From NCBI RefSeq assembly GCF_013403865.1, contig NZ_JABFDK010000007.1, positions 1-64,000 of the forward strand: 64,000 nucleotides of DNA, given 5' to 3'. The notes beneath the pieces were generated by a model, which did no database searches, had not been told where the DNA came from, and saw only the letters and a program-made list of their open reading frames with translations. Below are positions 36,773 through 54,791 of the stretch, piece by piece. The number at the start of each line of letters is the position of its first letter. Position 1 is the stretch's first letter. A program made the position numbers and the translations under genes. Source of the DNA: Winogradskyella costae (lineage in GTDB: Bacteria; Bacteroidota; Bacteroidia; Flavobacteriales; Flavobacteriaceae).

Positions 36773-36848
36773 GTATTTATACATTGTATTGTAAATACAG
36801 GTTATTTAGAAATTTACTACCTTGACAATCTATTACAACAATAGTTTT

Positions 36849-39668
36849 ATGTCAGTTTTCAATAAATATAAATTCAATCTTAGTTTTTTATGTCTTACGC
36901 TAATTTTTAGTGTAATGTCATATGCGCAAGAGATTCCTCCTATTCAAATATTCACTCCCAATGATTATGGTGCAGATGACCAAAATTGGTCGATAACGCA
37001 ATCTCAAAATGATTTTATATACGTAGCTAACAATAAAGGGCTTTTAGAATATAATGGGGCATCTTGGCAGCTGTACAATTCTCCAAATGAAGGAATTTTA
37101 AGAACTGTAAAGCTAGTCAATGGCGTTATTTTTTCTGGTGGATACATGGATTTTGGATTTTGGATAAAAAATAAAAAAGGAAAGCTTTCTTATACATCAT
37201 TAAGCGATCATAAAGATTTATCGATTAAAGAAGATGAGGATTTTTGGGGAATTGTAAGTGTAGAGGATTTTGTGTTATTTCAGTCTTTCGATAGGATTTA
37301 CATATATAACACAACAGAGGATAGTTTTAGTATTATCGATTCTGATACGAGAATCAATAAAATGTTTAAGGTAAAAGAGTCCGTTTATTTTCAAAAAATA
37401 GGTGTAGGTGTTTTTAAAATTGAAAATGGAGAAGCATCGTTAGTCATTCCGTCCAACGATATTGATAATACTGAGCTAGTAAATATTTTCAACTCTGATT
37501 CTGGACTACTTTTTCAAACAAAAGAAAAGGGCTTTTACAAGTTTAAAGATCAAAAAGTAGAACATTGGAATATAAGCTCAGATAGTTTATTAGCAGATAT
37601 AAGTATCTATTGTAGTGTTAAATTAAAAGATGGGGGTTTCATTCTAGGAACAATTGCAAACGGAATTATCCATTTAGATGAAAATGGTGATGAATTAATG
37701 AAAATTGATCAATCCTATGGCTTAAGCAATAATACGGCGCTTTCAATGTTTGAAGATAGTTATGGAAATGTTTGGCTAGGGCTAGATAACGGAATTAATA
37801 TCTTAAATTTAAATTCACCTTTTAAAGTTTATACGGATAAATTGGGTGTTTTAGGAACGGTCTATGCCGCCGCTCAAACTGACGATTTTCTTTACTTAGG
37901 GACTAATCAAGGTTTGTTTTATAAACCTAAAGGTTCTAATGTGAAATTTAATTTTATTAAAGGAACAAAAGGACAAGTTTGGTTTTTGTCGGTATTAAAA
38001 CAGACGTTGTTTTGTGGGCATAATAAAGGGACATTCGTAATAGAAGGCGGCAAGGCGAAACAAGTTTCTTCAGAAATGGGGACATGGATTGTGAAAGAAA
38101 TTGAAGGCTATCCCAATCTTTTAATTCAGGGGAATTATATAGGAATGAATATTTTAGAATATGTAAATAACACTTGGCAGTACAGAAATAAAGTTGAAGG
38201 TTTCACTGTGTCTTCTCGGTATTTTGAATTTATTAACCCACATGAGTTATTGGTAAGTCATGAGCATAAAGGTGTTTATAATGTTAAAATGGATAATGAT
38301 TTTAGGTCTGTTTCTGAATATAGTAAATTACCCATTGGTTATGGAGTTGGGTCTAGTATAATCAGTTATAATAATACTATTTTATACAGTTATAAAGAAG
38401 GGGTTTTTAGTTATGACCTTAACAATAAGAACTTTGTGAATGATACGATTTTAAGTAATTTATTTAGTGAAGAGCAGTACATTTCTGGTAAACTTTTTAA
38501 TGAAACTCCAAGGAATAAGTTGTGGGGATTTTCTAAAGATAAGATCATATATATTGAGCCCGGTAAATTGTCTAGTGAGCCTGAAATTAAAGTTATAGCG
38601 ATTTCAAGTGAGTTGCGTAAAAGTAAGTCTGCATTTGAGAACATATTAGACTTAGGTGATGATAAATATTTAATCGGAACTACGGAAGGCTATCTCATTA
38701 TCGATTTAAAGAAATTGGTGCAACAAGATTTTGATATGCACTTAAATAGTGTGGAATTTGGAAAGTTGCCAAACGAACTTTTACCTTTAGATTTAGTTGC
38801 GTCTCCAACGCTCAAAAATAAATCCAATAACGTACGATTTACCTATAGTGTCACAAATTACAATAAACTTTCTGCTTCTAAGTATCAGTATAAATTATCT
38901 GGTATTTATAATGAATGGAGTGATTGGTCAGGGAGTTCTGAAGTGTTTTTTAAGAACTTACCTCATGGGGATTATAATTTTGAGGCAAGAGCAATGACAG
39001 ATGGGGTGGTATTAGATAATGACCTGTCTTATGATTTTAGTATTGAAAAGCCTTGGTACCTTAAACCTTTAGCTATCATTTCTTATATTTTGATGGCATT
39101 ATTATTTATATACGTGCTTTTTTATTTTAATAAGAAACATTATAAGAAACAGCAGCAGAAGCTTATTAAAAAGAAAGAAAGACAATTGAAATTTGAGCAA
39201 TTAGAAAACCAGCGTCAGTTAATTCAATTCAAAAATAAAAACTTGCAATTAAATATTGAGAATAAAAACAGGGAGCTTGGTATGGCAACCATGAATTTAG
39301 TTAAGCGTAATGAATTACTTAATAGTATTAAAAGTGAATTGTCTAAAAGCAAAACGCTAAACGAAGTTAAAAAAGTCATAAAGGTCATAAATTCAAATTT
39401 AAACAATACTAATGATTGGGAATTATTTGAAGAAGCCTTCAATAATGTAGATAAAGATTTTATGAAAAAGATGAAATCAATTCACCCAACTATTACTCCA
39501 AATGATTTAAGACTGTGTGCTTATTTAAGATTAAACCTGTCTTCTAAAGAGATAGCACCACTTCTAAATATCTCACATAAAAGTGTAGAGGTTAAGCGCT
39601 ATCGTTTGCGTAAAAAGTTAGAATTAGACCACGAACAAAGCTTATCTAACTACATTATAGAGATTTAA
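36849..39668 (+). CDS. Membrane-spanning propeller/Y_Y_Y sensor with LuxR-type DNA-binding domain
   Basis: The ATG at 36849 (MSVFNKYKFNLSF) is preferred to a TTG at 36822; it gives 939 aa. A signal peptide (ending MSYAQ) is followed by a large periplasmic beta-propeller region with two-component-regulator propeller motifs (for example MFEDSYGNVWLGLDNGINIL). A Y_Y_Y domain follows (YQYKLSGIYNEWSDWSG), then one transmembrane helix (about 737-757), a cytoplasmic coiled coil, and a C-terminal helix-turn-helix (TPNDLRLCAYLRLNLSSKEIAPLL, HKSVEVKRYRLRKKL; about 880-930). There is no kinase or receiver domain, so it should couple periplasmic ligand binding directly to DNA binding. It stands at the head of the glucan locus and is its likely activator. 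Confidence 0.85.
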   Translation: MSVFNKYKFNLSFLCLTLIFSVMSYAQEIPPIQIFTPNDYGADDQNWSITQSQNDFIYVANNKGLLEYNGASWQLYNSPNEGILRTVKLVNGVIFSGGYMDFGFWIKNKKGKLSYTSLSDHKDLSIKEDEDFWGIVSVEDFVLFQSFDRIYIYNTTEDSFSIIDSDTRINKMFKVKESVYFQKIGVGVFKIENGEASLVIPSNDIDNTELVNIFNSDSGLLFQTKEKGFYKFKDQKVEHWNISSDSLLADISIYCSVKLKDGGFILGTIANGIIHLDENGDELMKIDQSYGLSNNTALSMFEDSYGNVWLGLDNGINILNLNSPFKVYTDKLGVLGTVYAAAQTDDFLYLGTNQGLFYKPKGSNVKFNFIKGTKGQVWFLSVLKQTLFCGHNKGTFVIEGGKAKQVSSEMGTWIVKEIEGYPNLLIQGNYIGMNILEYVNNTWQYRNKVEGFTVSSRYFEFINPHELLVSHEHKGVYNVKMDNDFRSVSEYSKLPIGYGVGSSIISYNNTILYSYKEGVFSYDLNNKNFVNDTILSNLFSEEQYISGKLFNETPRNKLWGFSKDKIIYIEPGKLSSEPEIKVIAISSELRKSKSAFENILDLGDDKYLIGTTEGYLIIDLKKLVQQDFDMHLNSVEFGKLPNELLPLDLVASPTLKNKSNNVRFTYSVTNYNKLSASKYQYKLSGIYNEWSDWSGSSEVFFKNLPHGDYNFEARAMTDGVVLDNDLSYDFSIEKPWYLKPLAIISYILMALLFIYVLFYFNKKHYKKQQQKLIKKKERQLKFEQLENQRQLIQFKNKNLQLNIENKNRELGMATMNLVKRNELLNSIKSELSKSKTLNEVKKVIKVINSNLNNTNDWELFEEAFNNVDKDFMKKMKSIHPTITPNDLRLCAYLRLNLSSKEIAPLLNISHKSVEVKRYRLRKKLELDHEQSLSNYIIEI

Positions 39669-39944: not shown

Positions 39945-42900
39945 ATGAGAAAACGCTTTCTTAAGTTAATATTCTTACTACTAGCAATTCCAATCTTTAG
40001 TCAATCTAATAATGTTGAGGTATTAAATAATGCCGAAGGAATGAAACTAATTGTTGATGGTGAAGATTTTATGATTAATGGTATGAATTGGGGTTATGTA
40101 CCAATAGGTACAAATTTTAACTACAGTTTATGGAAGCAATCAGACGATGTTATTAAGGCAGCGCTAGATGCTGAAATGTCGTTATTAAAGAATATGGGTG
40201 TAAATGCTATTAGGCAATACACAGGTATACAACCGAAATGGATAACCTATATTTATGAGAATTATGGTATTTATACCATGCTTAATCATTCATTTGGCCG
40301 TTATGGTTTAACTATTAATGGGAGCTGGGTTGCGGTTACGGATTACAGAGACGAAGCAACTCAGAACATATTAATGGATGAAATCACTGAATTAGCTGAA
40401 ACATATAAAGACACTCCTGGGCTACTATTATTTTTATTAGGAAATGAAAATAATTACGGATTATTTTGGGCAGGATCTGAAACGGAAGATTTTCCAGATG
40501 AAGAAGAACAGAGAAGAGAAGTTGGTGAGAAACGTGGACGTCCAATGTATAAGCTAATGAACGATGCAGCCATTAAAATGAAGTCAATCGATTCATCTCA
40601 CCCGATTGCAATCTGTAATGGAGATTTATTGTTTTCCGAAATAATAGCAGAAGAGTGTAAAGATGTCGATATCTACGGTACAAATATGTATCGCGGCAAG
40701 TCATTTGGTGATGCTTTTGAAAGGGTTAAAAATGAACTTAACATGCCAATCTTATTCACAGAGTTTGGATCAGATGCCTTTAATGCTGTTGACAATGAAG
40801 AAGATCAAAAAATGCAAGCATTTTTTGTTGTAGAAAACTGGAAAGAAATTTACCAAAATGCAGCCGGATTGGGTAAGGCAGGCAATTCAATAGGTGGTTT
40901 TACTTTTCAATTTAGTGATGGCTGGTGGAAACTAGGACAAACAAAAAATTTAGATGTTCATGATACTGGAGCGTCTTGGGCAAATGGAGGTTATTATTTA
41001 GATATGAAAGATGGAAATAATAATATGAATGAAGAGTGGTTTGGTATATGTGCAAAAGGTCCAACAAATGAAAGAGGATTATATACCTTATACCCACGTT
41101 CTGCATACTATTCTTTAAAAGAGGCACATCAAGTTAATCCTTATGACGAAGACATGACGGGTGATTTTATATCAAACTATTTTTCTAATATTAATTTAAT
41201 GGATGGTGTCTTAAGGGCACGAGGAGATAAAGCATTATTAGGAGGTAACGATTCTCAAAAAATAAGAATTAGCAGACTTACTGCAGAATTCTCAACATTT
41301 AATACAGGGGGAAGTTTAATTACTACACCAGACAATGTAGATGAGGATTCAGATGCATTTCCAAACCAACTAGGCTTCGATCATATGGAGTCATATTTCG
41401 TTGGAATTGAAGGTAAGCCGGCTTCAAATATGAGAGCTAATGTTAATTTTAACGTAGTTGGTAATATTGCAGGAAATCCAATTGACGAAATTTTCTATGA
41501 AAACAGATCAAGAGCAGTCAATGTTGATTCTGATGATGGAGAAGTTACACTTACGGATATTAATAGAGTTAATGTTTATGATGCAGAATTTGAATGGAAT
41601 GCTAAGGATTTTGATTTAAGAGGATTCTATCGTACAGGGCATTATCATTGGGCATATGAAGGAGATATTTTTAATCTATATCCCGAAGCTAATTACGGTC
41701 CTAACTTAGATATCTACGGTGGCGAAATTTTAGGATTAGAAATAGATGGAAAAGGGGATTTAAGTGGTTTAAAAGCTGCTTTCGGACCTCAACTTTGGTG
41801 GGGAGCAAATCCAACCGCTTTACTTAAATACAGTCGTAAAGTTGGAAAATGGGATATGACAGGTGTTTACCATAGAGATCTTCAAACAGAGCTTCGATTT
41901 GATGAAAATGGGCAACGAATATTAGATGCAAATCAAGTTCGTAGTGGTATTATTCCAGCATGGCCAACGGAAAGAGCAACCATTGCTGTAGAAAGAAAAT
42001 TAGGAAAATTTGGACTTACCGCAGGAGCTATTTGGGCAGGTAGTCCACTTAACGGAAGTTCATTCCAAGATGTAACGGGTGGTCCTGGAAATTACACCGT
42101 TTATGAAGATAAAGTTACAAGTAAAGATAATTGGGGTGGAAAAGCCAAAATTACATATCAAGAAGGTAAAATAAATGCCTATGCTCAAGCTGCCGTTATG
42201 GGATTAGTTGCTAATGCCGGGGCAGATCAAACGCAAACATTTACAGGTTGGAAATTAAAAGATAATGGAAGCGGAAACCAATCTAATGTTCTTGCAGGAT
42301 TTACATATACTGTTGGTGATTTTCAAATAGCACCAAACTTCTTATGGCAAAAGCCTTTAGTAGATGCAATGCCAAGTGATGTGGATGCGCCTGGTAGATT
42401 AAGAAATGTAATTGAAGACCCATTTGCGGTTAGAAATAATAGGGAGACAACAGCAGGAGAAATGTTAATTACGTTCGATCCAACTCCTGGAACATGGATG
42501 TATGAATGGGATAACGACCGCACTGAAGACGCCAAATTTGCGATGAACCTTGGTTTTGTTTACCGTCATCTTCCTACACAGCAAGATGCGCATATTGGTT
42601 TCCTAGCCAATCGCCAGTTCTTTGCTTTCCCTACATCTGCACCAGCAGAAGATTTGTGGGAGGTAAGTACAAGAATGGTATCCAAGTTAAATCCAGACTT
42701 AGGGGTTATTGGAAATTTCTATTATGGTAATGGCCAGGCAAACGGTGATAGTGATAGATTAATAAAAAGATTTGGTGGTGATGTAAGACTGATTTACAAC
42801 AAAATGAAAGTTGAGACACATGTTAAAATAAATGATTGGGGACCTTTTGATTATCATAGAGATTTCAACTTAACGTATCCAGTACAGTTGATGTTAGATG

Positions 42901-43112
42901 TGTCAACCTCTTTAGGAAAACCAGATTGGTTTATATTACCAAGCACAGTGATTGGGATAAGAGGAACATGGCGTTCACTTGATGCTAACTCACCAAGGTA
43001 CTCTCCTTTAGCGGCATCAGAATTTGAAGTAGCACCTATCAGTGCTGTTGGATTTCCTGATGGATCTGAATGGGAGATTAGAACCTATGTACATATTAAT
43101 ATTGGAAAATAA
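39945..43112 (+). CDS. Clan GH-A glycoside hydrolase (GH2-like TIM barrel) fused to an outer-membrane beta-barrel
   Basis: This is a 1055-aa exported protein with a signal peptide (ending IPIFSQ). Residues about 30-390 form a (beta/alpha)8 glycosidase domain resembling the GH2 catalytic barrel and beta-glucan enzymes of clan GH-A. The likely acid/base is Glu168 (LLGNENNYG) and the likely nucleophile Glu273 (LFTEFGSDAF). Residues about 410-1055 contain no second enzyme motif. They show alternating hydrophobic strands with aromatic residues at strand ends, closing with WEIRTYVHINIGK, as in outer-membrane barrels. I infer an enzyme-porin fusion. It leads the glucan gene set, 275 bp after the regulator, and 11 bp before the binding lipoprotein gene. 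Enzyme specificity is inferred from neighbours. Confidence 0.7.
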   Translation: MRKRFLKLIFLLLAIPIFSQSNNVEVLNNAEGMKLIVDGEDFMINGMNWGYVPIGTNFNYSLWKQSDDVIKAALDAEMSLLKNMGVNAIRQYTGIQPKWITYIYENYGIYTMLNHSFGRYGLTINGSWVAVTDYRDEATQNILMDEITELAETYKDTPGLLLFLLGNENNYGLFWAGSETEDFPDEEEQRREVGEKRGRPMYKLMNDAAIKMKSIDSSHPIAICNGDLLFSEIIAEECKDVDIYGTNMYRGKSFGDAFERVKNELNMPILFTEFGSDAFNAVDNEEDQKMQAFFVVENWKEIYQNAAGLGKAGNSIGGFTFQFSDGWWKLGQTKNLDVHDTGASWANGGYYLDMKDGNNNMNEEWFGICAKGPTNERGLYTLYPRSAYYSLKEAHQVNPYDEDMTGDFISNYFSNINLMDGVLRARGDKALLGGNDSQKIRISRLTAEFSTFNTGGSLITTPDNVDEDSDAFPNQLGFDHMESYFVGIEGKPASNMRANVNFNVVGNIAGNPIDEIFYENRSRAVNVDSDDGEVTLTDINRVNVYDAEFEWNAKDFDLRGFYRTGHYHWAYEGDIFNLYPEANYGPNLDIYGGEILGLEIDGKGDLSGLKAAFGPQLWWGANPTALLKYSRKVGKWDMTGVYHRDLQTELRFDENGQRILDANQVRSGIIPAWPTERATIAVERKLGKFGLTAGAIWAGSPLNGSSFQDVTGGPGNYTVYEDKVTSKDNWGGKAKITYQEGKINAYAQAAVMGLVANAGADQTQTFTGWKLKDNGSGNQSNVLAGFTYTVGDFQIAPNFLWQKPLVDAMPSDVDAPGRLRNVIEDPFAVRNNRETTAGEMLITFDPTPGTWMYEWDNDRTEDAKFAMNLGFVYRHLPTQQDAHIGFLANRQFFAFPTSAPAEDLWEVSTRMVSKLNPDLGVIGNFYYGNGQANGDSDRLIKRFGGDVRLIYNKMKVETHVKINDWGPFDYHRDFNLTYPVQLMLDVSTSLGKPDWFILPSTVIGIRGTWRSLDANSPRYSPLAASEFEVAPISAVGFPDGSEWEIRTYVHINIGK

Positions 43113-43123
43113 AAAAGCGAAAA

Positions 43124-45013
43124 ATGAAAAATACAAGTTTAATTCAAATTAAGAGAACATTCGTTTTAGGGATGGTTTTAGTCCTAGCTTTAGGATGTGA
43201 AAGAGATCTTACGGATGATGCAATACCAGCAACTTTCGCAAAAGTAGGGGACATATTTACAGATGACTTCGTATCTATGGGAAGTGATTTTTACTTTCCT
43301 TTTGGTGGGTCAAAATTAGATGCTTTCTCTGTAGATACAGAAGAAGGTTATGAAAGTTCAGCTTCTTATCGTATTGATGTGCCAAATTCAGATGATCCAG
43401 CGGGTAATTATGCTGGTGCTATATTAAGAGTTGATGGTGCAGGTAGAGATTTATCGGGTTATGATGCCTTGACATTTTGGGCAAAAGCATCGCGTGGTGT
43501 TAGTATAGATGCTGTTGGGTTTGGTCAAGATTTCTTAGATAATAAATTTCAAGTTAATGCTAGTAATCTAAGTGTTGGTACTAATTGGTCAAAATTTACT
43601 ATTCCGATCCCAGATGCTTCTAAATTAACAGAAGAGCGAGGTCTGTTTTGGTATGCTGCAGGTACGCAGGCCACAGGAGGTTCTGGTTATGTCATTTGGT
43701 TAGATGAAATTAAGTTTGAAAACTTAGGAAACATCGCACATCCAAGACCTGCTATTTTAAACGGAAGCAATGTGATAGAAGAAACCTTTAGTGGTGCTAC
43801 AATTGCATTAACGGGGCTTACTCAAACATTAAATTTGGCTTCTGGGGTTAATCAAGAGGTTACGATATCTCCAAATTATTTTGCTTTTACATCTTCAAAT
43901 ACAAGTGTTGCAACAGTTAGTGAATTAGGTATCGTTGACATTGTAGGTGGTGGTGAAGCAGTAATTACTGCTACGTTAGACGGAATGGATGCAGAGGGCT
44001 CACTAAATATTACATCATTGGGCGATTTTAATCCGGCTCCTGTACCTACAGTAGAGGCTAGCTCTGTAATTTCAATTTTTAGTGATGCTTATACAAATGA
44101 ACCTGTAGATTACTATAATGGGTATTGGGCGCCGTTTCAAACGACTCAAGGTCAGAATGATATTCAAGTTAACGGAGATAACATTATCAAATATTCTGAA
44201 CTAAACTTTGTTGGAATTCAATTTGCCGTAGATGTACCCACTATTGATGTTTCTCAAATGACACATTTCCACATAGATATTCAGGTACAAGGCGATATCG
44301 ATCCAGGCGACTTTTTACAGGTTAAACTTCAGGATATTGGAGCTGATAATGCGTTTGGAGGTACTGATGATTCTGATGACGAATTAACCTTAACTAACAC
44401 CACTTTGGTTTCTAATAGCTGGGTGAGTATTGATGTTCCGATTTCAGACTTTCCAGGGTTAACGAGTAGATCTAATTTGGCTCAAGTAGTGTTCATTTCT
44501 GATGCAACAATTACAGATGTCTATGTAGATAATATTTATTTCTATGAAATATCAGCAGAACCAACTGACGCTGCTCCAACTCCAACTGTTCCTGCTGCAA
44601 ATGTGATTTCAATTTTTAGTGATGCCTATGCTAATGTAGCAGGTACAAATTTAAATCCAGACTGGGGACAGGCAACAGCAGTTACAGAAGAAGCTATTGA
44701 AGGTAATAATGCGTTAAAATACTCAGGTTTAGATTACCAAGGAATTCTATTAGGTTCGGCTCAAGATGTATCTAGTATGACGCATTTACATATCGATTAT
44801 TTCACAGCAAATTCTACAGCACTTAATGCTTTTTTAATTAGTTCAGGTCCTATAGAAAAAGCGAAGGCACTAGCTGTGCCAAGTGCTTCGGGTTGGACAA
44901 GTTTAGAAATTCCATTAGCGGATTTCAATCCTGTAGATCTTGCAGATATTATTCAATTAAAATTTGATGGAAACGGTGACATTTATATAGATAATATCTA
45001 TTTCCATAATTAA
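43124..45013 (+). CDS. Modular surface glycan-binding lipoprotein (predicted)
   Basis: This 629-aa lipoprotein has lipobox ALGC with Cys25. A jelly-roll carbohydrate-binding-like domain follows (about 30-205; SGYDALTFWAKASRGVS, GYVIWLDEIKFENLG), then a BIG2-like Ig domain (about 215-297). Two copies of a domain starting VISIFSDAY end the protein (about 313-475 and 488-629), each closing with a YVDNIYF or YIDNIYF strand. No catalytic residues are evident. The same domain recurs in the T9SS-secreted protein at 55196. Position between the enzyme-barrel and GH16 genes suggests it binds the polysaccharide at the cell surface. That role is inference; the domain family has no function I can name with certainty. 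Confidence 0.75.
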   Translation: MKNTSLIQIKRTFVLGMVLVLALGCERDLTDDAIPATFAKVGDIFTDDFVSMGSDFYFPFGGSKLDAFSVDTEEGYESSASYRIDVPNSDDPAGNYAGAILRVDGAGRDLSGYDALTFWAKASRGVSIDAVGFGQDFLDNKFQVNASNLSVGTNWSKFTIPIPDASKLTEERGLFWYAAGTQATGGSGYVIWLDEIKFENLGNIAHPRPAILNGSNVIEETFSGATIALTGLTQTLNLASGVNQEVTISPNYFAFTSSNTSVATVSELGIVDIVGGGEAVITATLDGMDAEGSLNITSLGDFNPAPVPTVEASSVISIFSDAYTNEPVDYYNGYWAPFQTTQGQNDIQVNGDNIIKYSELNFVGIQFAVDVPTIDVSQMTHFHIDIQVQGDIDPGDFLQVKLQDIGADNAFGGTDDSDDELTLTNTTLVSNSWVSIDVPISDFPGLTSRSNLAQVVFISDATITDVYVDNIYFYEISAEPTDAAPTPTVPAANVISIFSDAYANVAGTNLNPDWGQATAVTEEAIEGNNALKYSGLDYQGILLGSAQDVSSMTHLHIDYFTANSTALNAFLISSGPIEKAKALAVPSASGWTSLEIPLADFNPVDLADIIQLKFDGNGDIYIDNIYFHN

Positions 45014-45048: not shown

Positions 45049-45882
45049 ATGGAATCATCAATAAAGAATAAAATATCAGTAGCCGTAAGTTTATTTACAG
45101 CTGTTATACTAGTTACGTTTTTGAGTTGTTCAACAGATGAAACTCAGACGGTAACAAATTTTACTAATTTAACTATGGCAGACGAATTTGATTTGCCAGG
45201 TACACCAGATCCTACAATTTGGGGTTACGATATTGGTACAGGTCAAAATGGCTGGGGAAATAATGAATTACAATATTACACAGATCGTTCAGAGAATATT
45301 ATAGTAGAAGATGGTTTACTTAAGTTTACTGTAAGGCAAGAATCATATGAAGGTTCTGGGTATACTTCGGCAAGAATTCTTACTAAAGGTAAATTTGAAC
45401 AACAACACGGCCGTTTTGAAGCTCGAATTAAATTGCCTTGGGGCCAAGGATTATGGCCAGCATTTTGGATGTTAGGAGATGATAATGATGGTACCGAAGT
45501 TTGGCCACAAATTGGTGAAATTGATATTATGGAAAATCGCGGACAAGAACCAACTATAGTTGGTGGTGCGGTGCATGGACCAGGGTATTCTGGTGGGACA
45601 GCAATATCTAAGCCTTATGAATTAGAGAATGATCGTTTCGATACTGATTTTCATGTTTTTGGAATAGAATGGGGTGAGGATTACATAAACTATTATGTAG
45701 ATGATGTTTTGTATAATCGAATCACACCAGATGATGTTCCTGGAGAGTGGGTTTATAATGATTCGTTTTATATCATAATGAATGTCGCAGTAGGAGGATC
45801 TTATGTAGGATCACCAAATGCATCTACAGTATTCCCTCAAGAAATGTTAGTAGACTACGTAAGAGTTTATTCAGCAGAATAA
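45049..45882 (+). CDS. GH16 family endo-beta-1,3-glucanase (laminarinase), lipoprotein
   Basis: This 277-aa lipoprotein (Cys27 in LSCS, followed by acidic STDE that may act as a surface-export signal) is a single GH16 domain. The catalytic motif ExDxxE is EIDIMEN, with Glu157 as nucleophile, Asp159 and Glu162 as acid/base. Further family residues include GQNGWGNNELQYYTDR, PAFWMLG, and the closing MLVDYVRVY. The Met in EIDIME is the form typical of bacterial laminarinases, in place of the lichenase EIDIEF. It should cleave internal beta-1,3 bonds of laminarin or similar glucans. A hairpin terminator follows, splitting the locus into two transcripts. Confidence 0.92.
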   Translation: MESSIKNKISVAVSLFTAVILVTFLSCSTDETQTVTNFTNLTMADEFDLPGTPDPTIWGYDIGTGQNGWGNNELQYYTDRSENIIVEDGLLKFTVRQESYEGSGYTSARILTKGKFEQQHGRFEARIKLPWGQGLWPAFWMLGDDNDGTEVWPQIGEIDIMENRGQEPTIVGGAVHGPGYSGGTAISKPYELENDRFDTDFHVFGIEWGEDYINYYVDDVLYNRITPDDVPGEWVYNDSFYIIMNVAVGGSYVGSPNASTVFPQEMLVDYVRVYSAE

Positions 45883-45969: not shown

Positions 45970-48900
45970 TTGAAGAACACAGCACTAAATAGAGACGTAA
46001 AATTAGAACAAGTTACAATAGAGAACGAGACCTATTTCAAAATTAGAAATAGTATCCAAATGCGTCCGTTTTTTATGAGTATTGTAAGCGATTCTAACCA
46101 TTGGATGTTTATTTCTAGTAACGGCGGATTATCAGCAGGACGTAAAAATTCTGAGTTTGCCTTATTTCCATACTATACAGACGATAAAATAACAGAATCT
46201 GCTGATATTACTGGCAACAAATCAATTTTTCAAGTTCGTAAAAATGACGAAGAATTTATTTGGGAACCATTATCTATAAGACCGTTAGGAGGCTATAAAA
46301 TAACTCAAAATCTTTATAAAAATAGATTTGGGAATAAGGTGATTTTCGAAGAAATTAATCACGATTTAGAATTAACATTTAGATATCAATGGAGTTCTAG
46401 TAATACATATGGTTTTGTAAAGAAGTCTACTTTGATTAATTCTTCAAAAGAATCTGTGAATATTACTCTTATGGATGGTATTCAAAATATTGTGCCTGCT
46501 GGTATAGGTAGTTTTATTCAAAATCAATCGAGTAATTTAGTTGATGCTTACAAGCGAAATGAATTAGAGAAATCTACAGGGCTTGGAATCTATGCACTTA
46601 GTGCAATTTTGGTTGATAAGGCTGAAGCCAGTGAAGCATTAAAAGCAAATGTTGTTTGGTCTTTAGGTTTAGAGCATCCAAAACATTTAGTGTCATCTTT
46701 ACAGCTGAATAACTTTAGATTAGGTAAATCTATAAATGAAGAAGTTGACGTAAAAGCAGAAAAAGGAGCTTATTTTATTTCTACACAAATTGAGTTGACT
46801 TCAGAAGCATCAAAGGAATGGATGTTTATTACAGATGTAAATAAAAATCATTCAGATATCGCTTTATTATCTAAACAAATAAGAGAAGATAAATCATTAG
46901 CCTTAAAGGTGAATGAAGATATAAACAAAGGAACTGAAAATCTTATCGAGTTAAGTGCAGCTTCAGATGCCATTCAAGTTACAGGAGATAGTTTAAGAGA
47001 TACACGTCATTTTGCCAATACGTTATTTAACATAATGCGTGGTGGTATATTTGACGATAATTATAAAATCGAAAAGTGGGATTTTAGTAATTATCTAGAA
47101 AATGCCAACAAGAAAGTAGCACGAACATCAGAGCCTATTTTGGCAAAACTTCCAAAGGTGTTTTCATTAGAAGAAATAAAAAAAATAGCATATAATAGTG
47201 ACGATAAAAACTTTAGACGTCTTTGTTTAGAATATATGCCGTTAAAATTTAGTCGCCGTCATGGAGATCCAAGTCGACCTTGGAATAAATTCTCTATTAA
47301 CACTAAAAGCGAAATTGATGGTTCTAAGATTTTAGATTACGAAGGAAATTGGAGAGATATATTTCAAAATTGGGAAGCCTTGGCGCATTCTTATCCTCAG
47401 TTTATTGAAAGTATGATTCATAAATTCTTAAACGCAACAACCTTTGATGGCTACAATCCTTACAGAGTAACAAAAGGCGGGTTTGATTGGGAAACAATAG
47501 AACCAGATGATCCATGGTCTTATATTGGCTATTGGGGCGATCATCAAATTATTTACTTGCTTAAATTCTTAGAGTTTATCCAAAATCATCAACCAGGGAA
47601 ATTAGACAGTTTCTTTAAAAAAGACTTATTTGTTTACGCAAATGTGCCTTATAAAATAAAGCCGTATAAAGACTTACTAAAAAACCCTAAAGACACCATT
47701 GTTTTTGATGATGTATTAGATCATAAAATTAACGAAGAACGCGAGCAATTAGGAGCAGATGGTGCCTTACTTAGAGACGAGAATAGATTTATTATAAAGG
47801 CAAATTTTATCGAAAAAATCTTAGCAACCTCATTAGCAAAATTGTCTAATTTCATTCCTGAAGGTGGTATTTGGATGAATACACAACGTCCAGAATGGAA
47901 TGATGCAAACAATGCCTTAGTTGGTAATGGAGTTTCCATGGTTACGCTTTATTATTTGAGACGTTTTTTCAATTTCTTTGAGGAATTGTTAGGTTCAACT
48001 ACTATTGATGAGGTAGAAATCTCAAATGAGATCTTTGATTTCTTCAATAGTGTGTTAGAAACTTTTGAAAACAATAAAAATTTATTGTCTGCATCAATTA
48101 ATGATTCAGATAAAAAAATAATATTAGATAGCCTAGGAAAAGCAGGTAGTGAGTTTAGAACACGTATCTACGAACACGCATTTTCGGGTAGGAAATCAAC
48201 ACTTTCAATTAGTAGATTGAAAGATTTTGTTAGCATTGGTAAATCTTTTTTAGAGCATTCTATCAGAGCAAACAAACGCTCAGATAACTTATATCACGCC
48301 TACAATTTAGTCACAGTAAATGATGATTCTGTTTCTATTTCATATTTAAGCGAAATGCTAGAAGGTCAGGTTGCTGTTTTAAGTTCAGGATATTTAAATA
48401 CTAAAGAAACATTAGAGGTCTTAGATGCCCTAAAACAAAGTAAACTTTTCAGAGAAGATCAGTACAGTTATATACTATACCCAAATAAAGAACTTAAAGG
48501 GTTTTTAGATCGAAATACAATTTCTAAAGACCACGTACATTCCTCTCAATTAATGCAAGCATTAGTAAAGGATGGTAATGTTCAAATCCTCGAAAAGGAT
48601 GTAAATGGTGAGTATCATTTTAATGGCAACTTTAAAAATGCTAGTGATGTTACTTCAGCATTAGAAAAACTTTCTGAAACAAAATATAAGTCACTTGTAC
48701 AATCAGATACATCAAAAGTGTTACAAGCTTTTGAAGCTGTATTTAATCACAAAGCATTTACAGGTAGATCAGGTACATTTTATGGTTACGAAGGATTAGG
48801 GTCTATATATTGGCATATGGTTTCTAAATTGTTATTAGCAGTGCAAGAATCGTGTATTAAGGCGGTTAATGATGGTGAGAGTGATGTTTTAGTAAGTAGG

Positions 48901-49410
48901 TTATTAGAGCATTTTTACGAAATAAATGCAGGTATAGGGGTGCATAAATCACCAGAATTATATGGTGCATTCCCAACCGATCCTTACTCACATACACCAG
49001 GTGGTAAAGGAGCACAACAACCAGGGATGACAGGCCAAGTAAAAGAAGATGTTTTGAGTCGCTTTGGAGAGTTAGGAATTTTTGTTTCTGAAGGAAAGTT
49101 GATTTTTAATCCATGTCTGTTACGAAAAAGAGAATTTTTTAATGAAGCCACTAGTTTCAACTATACCGATGTTTTTAAAGAGAAGAAAACGATTGAAATG
49201 GTCAAAGGATCATTAGGATTTACGTATTGCCAAGTACCTATTGTTTATCAAATTTCGGAAAAAGATAGTTTAGAAATTTCTTTAAAAGATGGAAGTGTCA
49301 AAATATTTGAGAGTTTAAAAATTGATACCGCAACGAGCGCTAAAATTTTTATGCGAACAGGTGAGGTGACTAAAATTATGGCACATATTAGTTCAAGTTA
49401 TTTAAAATAA
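45970..49410 (+). CDS. GH149-like beta-1,3-oligoglucan phosphorylase (cytoplasmic)
   Basis: This 1146-aa protein has no signal peptide and should be cytoplasmic. Its length and layout match GH149 and the wider GH94-type phosphorylases: an N-terminal beta-sandwich (about 20-300), a helical linker, a large (alpha/alpha)6 barrel (about 400-950) with aromatic-acidic signatures such as GNWRDIFQNWEALAHSYPQF and FDWETIEPDDPWSYIGYWGD, and a C-terminal beta-domain. GH149 enzymes reversibly cleave beta-1,3-glucan chains with phosphate to give glucose-1-phosphate. The start is TTG at 45970; no ATG occurs until codon 31. The gene follows a terminator and precedes GH17 by 12 bp. The exact catalytic Asp cannot be fixed by eye; GH94 or GH161 is the alternative. 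Confidence 0.8.
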   Translation: MKNTALNRDVKLEQVTIENETYFKIRNSIQMRPFFMSIVSDSNHWMFISSNGGLSAGRKNSEFALFPYYTDDKITESADITGNKSIFQVRKNDEEFIWEPLSIRPLGGYKITQNLYKNRFGNKVIFEEINHDLELTFRYQWSSSNTYGFVKKSTLINSSKESVNITLMDGIQNIVPAGIGSFIQNQSSNLVDAYKRNELEKSTGLGIYALSAILVDKAEASEALKANVVWSLGLEHPKHLVSSLQLNNFRLGKSINEEVDVKAEKGAYFISTQIELTSEASKEWMFITDVNKNHSDIALLSKQIREDKSLALKVNEDINKGTENLIELSAASDAIQVTGDSLRDTRHFANTLFNIMRGGIFDDNYKIEKWDFSNYLENANKKVARTSEPILAKLPKVFSLEEIKKIAYNSDDKNFRRLCLEYMPLKFSRRHGDPSRPWNKFSINTKSEIDGSKILDYEGNWRDIFQNWEALAHSYPQFIESMIHKFLNATTFDGYNPYRVTKGGFDWETIEPDDPWSYIGYWGDHQIIYLLKFLEFIQNHQPGKLDSFFKKDLFVYANVPYKIKPYKDLLKNPKDTIVFDDVLDHKINEEREQLGADGALLRDENRFIIKANFIEKILATSLAKLSNFIPEGGIWMNTQRPEWNDANNALVGNGVSMVTLYYLRRFFNFFEELLGSTTIDEVEISNEIFDFFNSVLETFENNKNLLSASINDSDKKIILDSLGKAGSEFRTRIYEHAFSGRKSTLSISRLKDFVSIGKSFLEHSIRANKRSDNLYHAYNLVTVNDDSVSISYLSEMLEGQVAVLSSGYLNTKETLEVLDALKQSKLFREDQYSYILYPNKELKGFLDRNTISKDHVHSSQLMQALVKDGNVQILEKDVNGEYHFNGNFKNASDVTSALEKLSETKYKSLVQSDTSKVLQAFEAVFNHKAFTGRSGTFYGYEGLGSIYWHMVSKLLLAVQESCIKAVNDGESDVLVSRLLEHFYEINAGIGVHKSPELYGAFPTDPYSHTPGGKGAQQPGMTGQVKEDVLSRFGELGIFVSEGKLIFNPCLLRKREFFNEATSFNYTDVFKEKKTIEMVKGSLGFTYCQVPIVYQISEKDSLEISLKDGSVKIFESLKIDTATSAKIFMRTGEVTKIMAHISSSYLK

Positions 49411-49422
49411 AAACGTAAGACA

Positions 49423-50703
49423 ATGAAATTAAAATTAATTGTGCTTGGTGTATTGGTAGCTGTATTTATAATGTCTTGCAATGAAAATAAAAAAGAAAAA
49501 AGTGTTGTAAATCAAATGATGAAAGAAATGACAGCTAAAGATATATTAGGTGATCCAGACTATTTAGCAATTTCTTACGGAGGTTATAGGGAAACTAACA
49601 GAGATGTTCAGCCTACAATTCTAGAGCTAAAAGAGGATATGAAAATCCTCAATGCTATGGGAGTAAAAGTGCTTAGAACGTATAATGTTCATTTCGATCA
49701 AGCTGCAAATCTGCTAAAAGCAATAGACGAACTAAAAGAGGAAGATGCTACTTTTGAGATGTATGTTATGCTTGGTATTTGGATTGATTGTAAAAACGCT
49801 TTTAATTGGGAAGCGGGTGAACCAGATCATAGCCAAGAAAGTGAACGAAATTCTTTAGAAGTAGATACAGCTGTTGCACTCGCAAAACAATATCCAAACA
49901 TCGTAAAGATTTTAGCGGTTGGAAATGAAGCGATGGTAAAATGGGCAACAAGTTATTATGTGCAACCATGGATTATTTTAAAATGGGTAACCCATCTTCA
50001 AGATTTGAAAAAAACAGGAGATTTACCAGCAGATTTATGGATCACAAGTTCAGATGATTTTTCATCTTGGGGTGGAGGTGATCCAAGTTATCATACAGAA
50101 GATTTAGAAAAAATAGCAAATGCGGTCGATTTTATCTCGATGCATACTTATCCATATCACCAATCGCATTACAATTCGGATTTTTGGAAGGTGCCAGAGC
50201 AAGAAGAAAATTTATCAGATAAAGAAAAAGTTGATGCAGCCATGTTACGAGCTGTAGATTTCGCTAAAAGACAGTATGATAGTGTAGCAAATTATATGAA
50301 CAGTATTGGGGTTAATAAACCCATTCATATTGGAGAAACAGGTTGGGCTTCTATCTCAGATGGTCATTATGGAAAAGCAGGATCAAGAGCAACAGATGAG
50401 TATAAACAAGGACTTTATTACAACCATTTACGTGAGTGGACTAATACTAATAAAATTGCATGTTTCTATTTCGAAGCTTTTGATGAACAATGGAAAGATG
50501 GGCAAAACCCTTTAGGTTCTGAAAATCATTTTGGATTAATTAACTTAAAAAGTGAAGCTAAATATCCGCTATGGAATTTGGTAGATAAAGAAGCGTTCAA
50601 AGGTTTAACGAGAGACGGAAAACCGATTACGAAAACATATGATGGTAATATTGAAACCTTGATGAAAGAAGTTTTAGTGCCAAATACAGAATATCCAAAA
50701 TAG
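49423..50703 (+). CDS. GH17 family beta-1,3-glucanase, lipoprotein
   Basis: This 426-aa lipoprotein (Cys19 in IMSCN) is a GH17 (beta/alpha)8 barrel. The acid/base is Glu169 (AVGNEAM) and the nucleophile Glu305 (HIGETGWAS), the standard GH17 pair. ISYGGYR and VLRTYNVHFD near the start and CFYFEAFDEQWK near the end are family landmarks. Residues after the lipid Cys are basic (NENKKEK), which suggests retention at the periplasmic face, not surface export. It should act on beta-1,3-gluco-oligosaccharides, as described for marine Formosa GH17 enzymes. It lies 12 bp after the phosphorylase gene. Confidence 0.92.
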   Translation: MKLKLIVLGVLVAVFIMSCNENKKEKSVVNQMMKEMTAKDILGDPDYLAISYGGYRETNRDVQPTILELKEDMKILNAMGVKVLRTYNVHFDQAANLLKAIDELKEEDATFEMYVMLGIWIDCKNAFNWEAGEPDHSQESERNSLEVDTAVALAKQYPNIVKILAVGNEAMVKWATSYYVQPWIILKWVTHLQDLKKTGDLPADLWITSSDDFSSWGGGDPSYHTEDLEKIANAVDFISMHTYPYHQSHYNSDFWKVPEQEENLSDKEKVDAAMLRAVDFAKRQYDSVANYMNSIGVNKPIHIGETGWASISDGHYGKAGSRATDEYKQGLYYNHLREWTNTNKIACFYFEAFDEQWKDGQNPLGSENHFGLINLKSEAKYPLWNLVDKEAFKGLTRDGKPITKTYDGNIETLMKEVLVPNTEYPK

Positions 50704-50895: not shown

Positions 50896-52398
50896 ATGAA
50901 AATACCAAAATATTCAATATTGGCAGTCTTAATACTTACTGTAATGAGTTGTGCTTCTGAGAAAAAGGAAAATAAAGATTTGAAAGTTGAAATTTATGAA
51001 ACTTCGGCAAGTGGAAATTCATTAACCAAGATTACTGAGTTATCTTCAATTGATACAACTTCAGTTATAAAGATCTTACCTGAGAAGAAGTTTCAGACCA
51101 TAACAGGTTTTGGAGGTTCTTTTACGGAGTCAACGGCCTATTTACTTAATAGATTGAGTAAAAAAAATAGAGATACTATTATTGAAGCTTATTTCGGTGA
51201 AGATGGAGCGCGGTACTCACTGACAAGAACTCATATCGCGTCTTGTGACTTTTCTTTAAGTAATTACACCTATGCACCTGAGGCAGATGATATGGAATTA
51301 AAGAGTTTCAATATAGATGATGATAGAGATGACTTGATACCGCTGATTAAAGATGCCCAAGCAATTTCAAAAGATGGATTTAAAATAATTTCTTCGCCTT
51401 GGTCGTCACCACCTTGGATGAAAGACAATCAGGACTACGTTGGAGGTAAATTATTGCCAAAATACTACGATGTATTCGCTCTATATTTTTCAAAATACCT
51501 TGATGCTTATAAAGCTGAAGGTATAGATATTTGGGGATTAACACCCGTTAATGAACCTCATGGCAATGGCAATAATTGGGAAAGTATGCACTTTACGCCA
51601 GAAGAAGAAACTGATTTTGTTCAAAACCATTTAGGACCAAAATTAGAAGCTAATGGATACGGTAGCATCAATATTTTGGGATATGATCAGAACAGAAAAG
51701 GTATAAAAGAATGGGTTGATGAAATGTATAAAGACGAGACTTCTTCAAAATATTTTGCAGGATTAGCTGTGCATTGGTATGAGAGCACTTATGATTATTT
51801 TCCAGAAGAATTACAATATGCACATAATAAAGCACCCAATAAATATTTAATTGAAACTGAGGGCTGTGTAGATTCTGAAATTCCTAAATGGCAAGATGAC
51901 GCTTGGTATTGGAGAAAAGAAGCAACTGATTGGGGTTGGGATTGGGCATCTGCAGAGGATAAACATTTACATCCTAAATATGCGCCTGTGAATAGATATG
52001 CAAGAGATATCATAGGTTGTCTTAATAATTGGGTTGACGGTTGGATAGATTGGAATATGGTACTCGATAAACAAGGCGGACCAAATTGGTTTGAAAATTG
52101 GTGTGTTGCACCAGTAATTGTAGACCCAGATAACGATGAGGTTTATTTTACACCCTTATATTACACTATGGCACATTTTAGCAAATACATTAGACCAGAA
52201 GCACAAGTAATCGGAGTAGAAAATCCTGATACAGAATTAATGATTACTGCGGCGCAAAACCCTGATGGATCAATAGCCGTAGTGCTTTTTAACGAAGGTA
52301 GTACCGAAAAGAACTTCGCTTTAAATCTTAACGATAAGCTTGTAACTATTAAAATTAATGCCCAAGCCATTCAGACTGTTGTAATACCACAATCTTAA
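50896..52398 (+). CDS. GH30 family beta-glucosidase/beta-1,6-glucanase, lipoprotein
   Basis: This 500-aa lipoprotein (Cys19 in VMSCA) has the GH30 core with its side beta-domain. The acid/base is Glu220 (LTPVNEPHG) and the nucleophile Glu322 (LIETEGC, aligned to the family SEAC motif). FQTITGFGGSFTESTA and FKIISSPWSSPPWMKDN are typical of GH30 subfamilies 1 and 3. Laminarin carries beta-1,6 branches and a Formosa GH30 removes them, so a debranching role is the best guess. The subfamily and exact bond need alignment. Basic residues after the lipid Cys (SEKKENK) suggest a periplasmic location. A 192-bp gap precedes it. Confidence 0.9.
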   Translation: MKIPKYSILAVLILTVMSCASEKKENKDLKVEIYETSASGNSLTKITELSSIDTTSVIKILPEKKFQTITGFGGSFTESTAYLLNRLSKKNRDTIIEAYFGEDGARYSLTRTHIASCDFSLSNYTYAPEADDMELKSFNIDDDRDDLIPLIKDAQAISKDGFKIISSPWSSPPWMKDNQDYVGGKLLPKYYDVFALYFSKYLDAYKAEGIDIWGLTPVNEPHGNGNNWESMHFTPEEETDFVQNHLGPKLEANGYGSINILGYDQNRKGIKEWVDEMYKDETSSKYFAGLAVHWYESTYDYFPEELQYAHNKAPNKYLIETEGCVDSEIPKWQDDAWYWRKEATDWGWDWASAEDKHLHPKYAPVNRYARDIIGCLNNWVDGWIDWNMVLDKQGGPNWFENWCVAPVIVDPDNDEVYFTPLYYTMAHFSKYIRPEAQVIGVENPDTELMITAAQNPDGSIAVVLFNEGSTEKNFALNLNDKLVTIKINAQAIQTVVIPQS

Positions 52399-52436: not shown

Positions 52437-54791
52437 ATGTCTAAAACAGCAAGTAAAGTACCAATGGGAAAAAAAATTGCCTTTGGATTAGGTATGTTAG
52501 CAAATCAAATGTTTCCTGCTGCTTTAGGAATATTTATGGTGGTACTAGTGAAAGATCTAGGATTTCCGACGTGGATGTGGGGAATTTTATATTTTCTACC
52601 TCGTATTTTTGATTCTATTACAGATCCAATTATGGGGTATATTTCCGATAATACAAGGTCTAAATGGGGAAGAAGACGTCATTATGTATTTCTTGGAGCT
52701 ATAATCATGGGAATTTCATTTGCCTTAATGTGGCAACTTCATAGAGAGGATACATTAGATTATAACTTTTGGTATTACTTAATTTGGTCTTTACTATTTT
52801 ATTTGGGCTTAACAATTTTTAGCGTACCCTATGTAGCTATGGGTTACGAGATGAGTGATGATTTTCATGAGCGTACCAATATTATGGCTGTTGCACAATG
52901 GATTGGACAATGGGCTTGGGTTTTAGCGCCATGGTTATGGGTCATTATGTACGATCCATCTTGGTTTGAGTCTGGTGATGTCGCTACAAGAACATTAGCC
53001 ATTTGGGTTGCTGTAGTTTGTTCTATTTTAGCTATGGTTCCTGCGATTTTTATAAAAGATAAATCTACTTTAAATGATGATAATCTAGAACCACTAAATC
53101 TAAGAGGTGTAGGAGGAAGTTTAAAGAAAATACTCAAAGGATTTCAAGAAGCTTTTAAATTAGAACCATTTAGAAAGTTATGTATTGCTACGTTTTTAGT
53201 TTTTAATGCCTTTAATACTGTTGCTGCATTTTCATTTTTTATAATAGTTTATTACCTCTTTAATGGTGATGCCGGTGCAGCTTGGATTTGGCCGACCTTA
53301 TTTGGAAGTGTAGGTGCTTTGGTTACAACGTTCGTTGTAATCCCTATTGTAGAGCGAATGTCTAAAAAAATAGGCAAGAAACAAGCGTTCTTGGTGTCTC
53401 AAGGAATCTCAATAATAGGTTACATAATGTTGTGGTTTTTGTTCATTCCAGGGAAACCCTATATGTTTTTATTCGCATTACCATTTTTCTCATTTGGTAT
53501 TGGGGGTCTGTTTACACTTATGATGTCTATGACTGCTGATGTTTGTGATTTAGATGAATTAAACTTTGGTCAGCGTCGCGAAGGCATTTTTGGAGCTATT
53601 TATTGGTGGATGGTAAAATTTGGTTTTGCCATTGCAGGAGGTTTAAGTGCTCTAATTATGTGGGCTGTAGATTTTACTCCAGATGCAGCAACTCAACCAG
53701 AAGGAGCCGTTACAGGACTTAGGTTTTTCTTTTCTGCTTTTCCAATATTAGGAACTGCAATTGCGATGTATGTAATGAGAAGCTATGATCTTACGGAAGC
53801 ACGCGCTATGGAAATTAGTGCTGAATTACAAAATCGTAAAGCCAAAAAGAAATCAAGACAACAGTCTTCTGTATATGGGGCAGGTAATCTACTTTCAGTA
53901 ATTAATAGCGATATTAAATTAGAGGATTACAAAGAAATTGACTTTACTAATAAAAGTGTTGAGCAAGCACAAATGCTTTTTCGAGAAAAATTAAATGCGA
54001 AACTTCACGGTTTATGTTTTAGTCCTTATGCTGAAGGTCAAGATATAGATGATATACTAACAGAGTCTCAAATTCGTAGACGTATGAATATTATTTCACC
54101 TTATACAAAATGGATTCGTTCATTTTCATGTACTGAAGGAAATGAATTGATACCGGAAATAGCTCACGAAAAAGGATTGAAATCTATTGTTGGTGCATGG
54201 ATAAGTGACGATGAAGTTAGAAATGAGAGAGAAATTGAAACCTTGATAAAATTGGCTAAAGGTGGTTTTGTCGATATCGCAGCTGTTGGGAACGAAGTAT
54301 TGTTACGTGGAGATGTTTCTGAAGACGCCTTAATCGTTTACATTAATAGAGTGAAACATGCTTTATCTGACTTGGATATTCCTGTTGGGTATGTAGATAC
54401 CTATTTCGAATATCATAAGCGTCCAAATTTAGTCGATGCAACGGATGTTATACTTGCTAATTGTTATCCGTTTTGGGAAGGTTTTAGTATTGATGATTCT
54501 TTACAGTATTTACGAGAAATGCATGCGATTACAAAACATGTCGCCAAAGGGAAACGCATAATTATAACAGAAACTGGTTGGCCTAGTCAAGGAGCAGCAA
54601 ATGAAGATGCTCACCCATCACAAATTAATGCCATGAAATATTTCATACAGACTCAAGATTGGTCCCATAAAGAAGGAGTAGAATTGTTTCATTTTTCATC
54701 GTTTGATGAATCTTGGAAAGTGCGGGTTGAAGGTGAATTGGGAGCACGTTGGGGAATATGGAGTAAGGACGAAAAATTAAAGTACAGGTAA
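52437..54791 (+). CDS. MFS (GPH-type) sugar transporter fused to a C-terminal GH17 domain
   Basis: This 784-aa protein has an N-terminal glycoside-pentoside-hexuronide/cation symporter-like transporter of about 12 helices (about 10-455). Its motifs are RIFDSITDPIMGYISDNTRSKWGRRR (loop 2-3 Asp-rich segment, read in part) and MMSMTADVCDLDELNFGQRREG. A basic linker (about 465-485) leads to a GH17-type (beta/alpha)8 domain (about 515-784). This domain has its own acid/base Glu620 (AAVGNEVLLRG) and nucleophile Glu712 (IITETGWPSQG). The frame is continuous with no stop. If the transporter has the usual topology, the GH17 domain lies in the cytoplasm, so it would process oligosaccharides as they enter. 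It is 38 bp downstream of GH30. Confidence 0.9.
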   Translation: MSKTASKVPMGKKIAFGLGMLANQMFPAALGIFMVVLVKDLGFPTWMWGILYFLPRIFDSITDPIMGYISDNTRSKWGRRRHYVFLGAIIMGISFALMWQLHREDTLDYNFWYYLIWSLLFYLGLTIFSVPYVAMGYEMSDDFHERTNIMAVAQWIGQWAWVLAPWLWVIMYDPSWFESGDVATRTLAIWVAVVCSILAMVPAIFIKDKSTLNDDNLEPLNLRGVGGSLKKILKGFQEAFKLEPFRKLCIATFLVFNAFNTVAAFSFFIIVYYLFNGDAGAAWIWPTLFGSVGALVTTFVVIPIVERMSKKIGKKQAFLVSQGISIIGYIMLWFLFIPGKPYMFLFALPFFSFGIGGLFTLMMSMTADVCDLDELNFGQRREGIFGAIYWWMVKFGFAIAGGLSALIMWAVDFTPDAATQPEGAVTGLRFFFSAFPILGTAIAMYVMRSYDLTEARAMEISAELQNRKAKKKSRQQSSVYGAGNLLSVINSDIKLEDYKEIDFTNKSVEQAQMLFREKLNAKLHGLCFSPYAEGQDIDDILTESQIRRRMNIISPYTKWIRSFSCTEGNELIPEIAHEKGLKSIVGAWISDDEVRNEREIETLIKLAKGGFVDIAAVGNEVLLRGDVSEDALIVYINRVKHALSDLDIPVGYVDTYFEYHKRPNLVDATDVILANCYPFWEGFSIDDSLQYLREMHAITKHVAKGKRIIITETGWPSQGAANEDAHPSQINAMKYFIQTQDWSHKEGVELFHFSSFDESWKVRVEGELGARWGIWSKDEKLKYR

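Follow-up and report, generated by a model that had tools for sequence, protein, structure and literature searches.

A predicted fusion of a clan GH-A enzyme and an outer-membrane β-barrel, a candidate catalytic porin, in a laminarin-type locus of Winogradskyella costae

Marine Flavobacteriia share a type of laminarin polysaccharide utilization locus (PUL) that has been named variant B (PMC6298971) or variant 1 (PMC10108472), encoding glycoside hydrolases (GHs) from GH16, GH17, GH30 and GH149, a major facilitator superfamily (MFS) transporter that may be fused to GH17 (MFS-GH17), and a LuxR-type regulator. In the accessible passages on such loci (PMC6298971, PMC6246565, PMC10108472, PMC13188888), one gene of the cluster is called GH2 or GH0 and a barrel is not mentioned; the Muricauda clusters of this type are listed with an upstream “GH2 β-glycosidase” (PMC13188888). 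Here, we analyzed a 64,000-nucleotide stretch of Winogradskyella costae (contig NZ_JABFDK010000007.1, positions 1 to 64,000; hereafter the window), which, as far as these passages tell, holds the same gene set, shows no SusC/SusD, and in which one gene (39945..43112, forward strand as for all features below; 1055 aa from an ATG start) encodes a signal peptide, a clan GH-A enzyme and a predicted outer-membrane β-barrel. Judging by gene content, this fused protein seems to be the GH2 or GH0 gene of the published clusters, and no description of such a barrel or enzyme-barrel fusion was found in the openly accessible literature passages. We propose, with a probability of roughly 0.6, that it is the catalytic porin of a laminarin utilization locus, with its enzyme located at the periplasmic mouth.

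The nearest described transport systems differ from the fused protein in several respects. SusC/SusD and BtuB/BtuG likewise pair a barrel in the outer membrane with a surface lipoprotein encoded alongside it, but the fused protein carries an N-terminal enzyme, is accompanied by a lipoprotein from another family, and had no match in Pfam, at E up to 1, to PF07715 or PF00593, which we take to be the plug and receptor domains of TonB-dependent transporters. The barrel fold is also shared with LamB, ScrY, OprD/Occ and AlgE, which have 16–18 strands, whereas the fused protein has 24–26 predicted strands in addition to its enzyme.

Domains of the fused protein

The two-domain layout claimed by the original prediction, which was made from the sequence alone, was borne out by an AlphaFold2 model. 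A Sec-like signal peptide with its cleavage site was recognized by eye at about residues 1–20 (39945..40004), a region in which residues 2–13 are modelled as a helix. It is followed by an eight-stranded TIM barrel (residues 24–395; 40014..41129), delimited by Pfam, the model, and structural and profile alignments, and by a helical end (residues 396–436; 41130..41252) which forms the C-terminus in all ten close relatives that do not carry the membrane barrel. The proposed catalytic pair was confirmed in its placement: Glu168 (40446..40448), the predicted acid/base in an Asn167-Glu168 motif, stands directly behind strand β4 (160–165), and Glu273 (40761..40763), the predicted nucleophile, is found at the end of β7 (269–274). 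Asn167, Glu168 and Glu273 are invariant across 59 sequences, including seven without the barrel, and the two glutamates align with E137 and E220 of the GH158 enzyme BuGH158 (PDB 6pal; offset of the chain numbering worked out by hand).

The only Pfam match in the fused protein was Glyco_hydro_2_C (PF02836; residues 73–282, 24.5 bits with a cut-off of 21); the C-terminal part matched no Pfam family, NCBIfam and PHROGs gave no matches, and a PDB sequence search with the single protein returned nothing at E up to 1. In GH2, N-terminal jelly-roll and Ig-like domains by definition precede the TIM barrel. Pfam showed no such domains, even at E up to 1, and the TIM barrel here starts straight after the signal peptide; a canonical GH2 was thus rejected on architecture, despite the PF02836 score above the cut-off. 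The enzyme domain appears nearest to the endo-laminarinases of GH158 and GH157. BuGH158 was the best sequence-profile match and shares the clan GH-A fold, the Asn-Glu acid/base and the Glu nucleophile at the ends of β4 and β7. The GH158 profile matched with a whole-sequence E of 5.8e-5 (best single stretch only 0.051), and the identity in structural alignments was 12–21%, so that the enzyme is a candidate member of GH158. BuGH158 has no membrane barrel; its TIM barrel is accompanied by an Ig-like domain, according to the accessible part of PMC7157763. No such domain was found in the model of the fused protein, where helices and then the membrane barrel come instead.

The barrel itself (residues 440–1053, about 615 aa; 41262..43103) was delimited by structure prediction, strand and loop analysis, and structural searches. 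It has 26 predicted strands, or 24 if a weak hairpin (706–723) in the model is not transmembrane. Folded alone, the C-terminal part gave a good model (predicted template modelling score, pTM, 0.77), for which all 50 solved structures listed by VIA-align were outer-membrane barrels by title, with AlgE on top, while the top Foldseek match was BtuB3 of a BtuB-BtuG complex. A set of soluble β-sandwich domains, which would have refuted the original prediction, was rejected on the VIA-align matches listed, and the membrane barrel of that prediction is supported. The predicted features are those of an outer-membrane β-barrel: a Sec signal, antiparallel membrane-spanning strands with amphipathic alternation, and an asymmetry of long and short loops. 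A PDB search with a barrel profile gave no matches at E up to 1; a relation to LptD, which has 26 strands, was considered, and LptD did not appear among the structural matches listed. As judged from strand parity and loop lengths, the strand number is even and the short turns lie on the side of the termini, so both termini, and hence the enzyme, would be periplasmic. This changes the original prediction of cleavage at the pore mouth: glucan would be cut at the inner mouth and not on the outside of the cell.

Distribution, barrel-less relatives and the partner lipoprotein

The layout recurred in other genomes. A search of genome_contigs found 481 stretches encoding relatives, the best 80 of which were kept and align nearly end to end with 69–99% identity; the layout is therefore not due to chance. 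The nearest relative, from Winogradskyella psychrotolerans RS-3, is 99% identical; in this draft (L019) the fused gene is broken into open reading frames (ORFs) of 295 and 789 aa, either by a sequencing error or by a real break. In a draw of 392 genomes from the phylum, 51 matched the whole protein and 38 carried the barrel part, all 38 together with an enzyme match; a barrel without the enzyme was not found in this draw. Partial barrel matches came from two genomes with contig ends or broken frames (G204, G235) and one with a decayed leftover (G119). A barrel profile built from 80 sequences retrieved exactly the 38 genomes that the single sequence had found, and among 98 genomes from the order of G255 the barrel was present only in G255 itself; no wider barrel family was thus found in the Bacteroidota searched by genome. 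The two-domain layout is widely conserved in this phylum.

Fourteen relatives of the enzyme are barrel-less, ten of them close (50–60% identity) and four distant (23–26%). A quick tree was built from 129 enzyme domains, 115 of them fused and 14 barrel-less; the latter were scattered over several places, with at least five changes in barrel presence or absence forced by the starred branches, and a single change was not upheld. Right behind the stop codon of one barrel-less gene (L129, 3471–3620) lies a decayed leftover of barrel strands 1–2 (tblastn E = 6e-6), which indicates that the barrel was lost from a fused form in that lineage; in the other nine close barrel-less loci, no such trace scored below E = 0.1. 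Whole loci have probably been transferred as well.

The presence of the barrel is tightly linked to that of a lipoprotein. In the window, the next gene (43124..45013; 629 aa, LALGC-ERDLTDD) encodes a predicted surface glycan-binding partner, assigned by Pfam and neighbour comparison, with weak CBM11 and Big_2 matches that are both under the Pfam cut-off. Neighbours were counted for 85 fused loci, namely 79 of the 80 from genome_contigs and six of 20 further stretches, leaving out L019 for its split gene and L082–L110 for their flanks of about 1.5 kb on each side; partners were called by BLASTP against the copy in the window. The CBM11-type lipoprotein was the next gene in 82 of the 83 fused loci having a downstream ORF, with a gap of 5–17 bases in 57/78 loci (exactly 12 in 29), and it was next to the enzyme in none of the 14 barrel-less relatives. 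At the exceptional locus, L123, a related protein is encoded directly upstream (44% over 163 residues, E = 9e-30), of the same type as a protein with a type IX tail encoded at 55196–56767 in the window. GH16 is the second downstream gene, behind the lipoprotein, in 76/80 fused loci, while GH149 directly follows the enzyme in 7/10 close barrel-less relatives. The barrel, the lipoprotein and GH16 seem to be gained or lost as one block, although GH16 lies upstream in some barrel-less loci.

An acidic stretch follows the lipobox cysteine in the window lipoprotein (ERDLTDD), and similar stretches are found in most homologues. It resembles, without an exact match, the surface-export signals reported for Bacteroidetes lipoproteins in the accessible part of PMC5080379 (QKDDE, SDDDD, SDDFE). 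A simple lipobox pattern matched within the first 60 residues of 74/82 partners; four of these matches fall on a cysteine that is still part of the signal sequence, and the complete acidic cluster is missing from the last few. Of the eight partners missed by the pattern, six showed a Cys-Glu/Asp-Arg start on reading and two have ORFs that begin too late.

The laminarin-type locus and SusC/SusD

The remaining genes complete the set of laminarin PUL variant B/1, with GH16, GH17, GH30, GH149 and MFS together in the window. Upstream of the fused gene, Pfam identified a regulator with a Reg_prop/Y_Y_Y sensor and a LuxR-type end (36822..39668). Downstream of the lipoprotein follow a GH16 predicted to be an endo-β-1,3-glucanase (45049..45882; the only PF00722 match in the genome), a GH149 β-1,3-glucan phosphorylase with no signal peptide seen (45970..49410; 1806.8 bits), a GH17 (49423..50703) and a GH30 that is likely a β-1,6-glucosidase (50896..52398); the GH16, GH17 and GH30 proteins are lipoproteins by eye. 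A single ORF (52437..54791) combines domain matches to an MFS sugar transporter and GH17. MFS proteins have 12 membrane helices, and with that number the GH17 domain would be cytoplasmic. Such MFS-GH17 fusions in laminarin PULs are already on record in the accessible passages of PMC10108472. Just behind the locus, the protein ending in a type IX (Por_Secre) tail (55196..56767) shares homologous domains with the lipoprotein encoded at 43124 (46% over 160 residues, E = 4e-31) and is possibly an extra, freely secreted glucan binder.

As originally noted, SusC/SusD was not seen in the window: none of its ORFs resembled the nine SusC and nine SusD proteins of the same genome by BLASTP. None of the nine SusD_RagB genes lies within the window, and the sole SusD_RagB match of this contig is found at C49:198159. 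Three of the nine SusD loci were scanned, of which two encode GH3. One (L142, 4526–13442) combines GH3 with GDPD and an endonuclease/phosphatase-family protein, and the other (L146, 2096–12629) encodes GH3 and two “Glycoamylase” (PF10091) proteins; PF10091 is presumably linked to GH144, and this locus is possibly for β-1,2-glucan. With the only GH16 (PF00722) of the genome here and GH3 at two of the three scanned loci, the window locus looks like the main laminarin system of the genome, without an adjacent SusC/SusD pair. In relatives, SusC/D calls relied on BLASTP comparison with the nine pairs of the window genome (threshold 1e-8). Among the 54 fused loci flanked on each side by at least 9 kb, 37 had no SusC/D nearby, and three had SusC/D-like ORFs arranged otherwise than as an upstream pair in the same operon. 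A published NS4-clade copy of the variant 1 locus is also described as being without susCD (PMC10108472, accessible passages).

Several observations weigh against the catalytic-porin proposal. In 14/54 of the well-flanked fused loci, a SusC/D pair lies upstream on the same strand with no intervening regulator, and thus in the same operon, so the barrel can coexist with SusC/SusD. Among the close barrel-less relatives, only two of ten (L111, L113) have a SusC-SusD pair just upstream, two more (L112 and L115, the latter extended by L151) carry a SusC-like ORF at a greater distance, and none was found in the available DNA, in some cases short, of the other six. Strict replacement of SusC/SusD by the barrel is therefore not upheld; replacement, as the original prediction had suggested, is no more than plausible, in line with the 37 loci that have no pair nearby. 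The SusC/SusD pairs elsewhere in the genome could also act in trans. On the structural side, the best-scoring barrel rows span only about two thirds of the model, closure of the barrel by pairing of strand 1 with strand 26 is presumed, and loops or the helical segment may plug the lumen. The full-length model reached a pTM of only 0.53 and does not predict how the enzyme sits relative to the barrel, and fold Z scores were tied between GH158, GH157 and GH2. A lipobox pattern also occurred in the first 45 residues of 8/85 fused proteins, probably as chance matches inside the signal peptide.

Alternative readings and proposed function

The barrel might serve only to keep the enzyme at the outer membrane, as a lipid anchor would, and let no glucan through, with SusC/SusD or general porins importing the sugar. 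Four of the ten close barrel-less relatives match the lipobox pattern, and a fifth does so by eye, which would give them a different membrane anchor; this and the SusC/D pairs retained in the operon of 14 of the 54 well-flanked fused loci agree with such a role. A barrel of 24–26 strands, however, far exceeds what an anchor needs, and the most conserved barrel loops point outward (563–595, 617–623 and 965–977, with conservation of 0.92, 0.99 and 0.98), unlike those of a passive anchor; further conserved loops were 753–778 (outward) and 845–864 (inward). As absence of the lipoprotein gene goes along with absence of the barrel, and SusC/D is not nearby in 37 of the 54 well-flanked loci, we regard an anchoring role as unlikely.

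Less probable still is an autotransporter-like function, in which the barrel would hand the enzyme to the surface and laminarin would be cut outside. Type V systems carry their passenger at the N-terminus and their barrel at the C-terminus, and helices (406–435) precede the first strand here. These helices are, however, part of the enzyme, since all ten close barrel-less relatives keep them, and several free-standing relatives look periplasmic. Classical autotransporter barrels have 12 strands in about 280 aa, about half the size of the barrel studied here, and no Pfam autotransporter domain was found in the fused protein. Export of self-made β-glucan through the barrel with trimming by the enzyme, by analogy with AlgE and alginate, is very improbable; AlgE as top structural row and a transglycosylase among the GH17 relatives of this locus type (PMC13188888, accessible passages) are the points in its favour.

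As a catalytic porin, the fused protein would act with its C-terminal barrel inserted in the outer membrane. Laminarin would be captured and cut at the cell surface by the neighbouring lipoprotein and the GH16 enzyme, and the barrel would let the glucan pieces through without a TonB-driven plug. The GH-A domain at the periplasmic mouth would then cut the emerging β-1,3-glucan, and this hydrolysis would maintain an inward gradient. The remaining breakdown could be carried out by GH17 and GH30 in the periplasm, by the MFS-GH17 transporter and by GH149 in the cytoplasm. An empty barrel of this width would leak; closure by the conserved loops or by the enzyme itself is our guess. The two domains, the catalytic pair, the barrel fold, the conserved association with the lipoprotein and the laminarin-type gene set come from the computations, whereas an open channel, the periplasmic position of the enzyme, its substrate and binding of the lipoprotein are inferred. 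More tentatively, these proteins may represent a new class of TonB-independent catalytic porins in marine Bacteroidota, in which a glycosidase at the inner mouth draws laminarin in by cleaving it, together with a dedicated surface lipoprotein, and which are able to serve without SusC/SusD.

Many marine bacteria that live on laminarin, a storage sugar of algae, carry the predicted enzyme-barrel fusion, which published gene lists, in their accessible parts, seem to enter as nothing more than an ordinary enzyme. If the barrel is a channel, loci of this kind may escape PUL surveys that look for susCD pairs, and crossing of the outer membrane by a different route, possibly passive and driven by hydrolysis, would become testable. 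A gene known from papers only under the names GH2 or GH0 would also gain a function.
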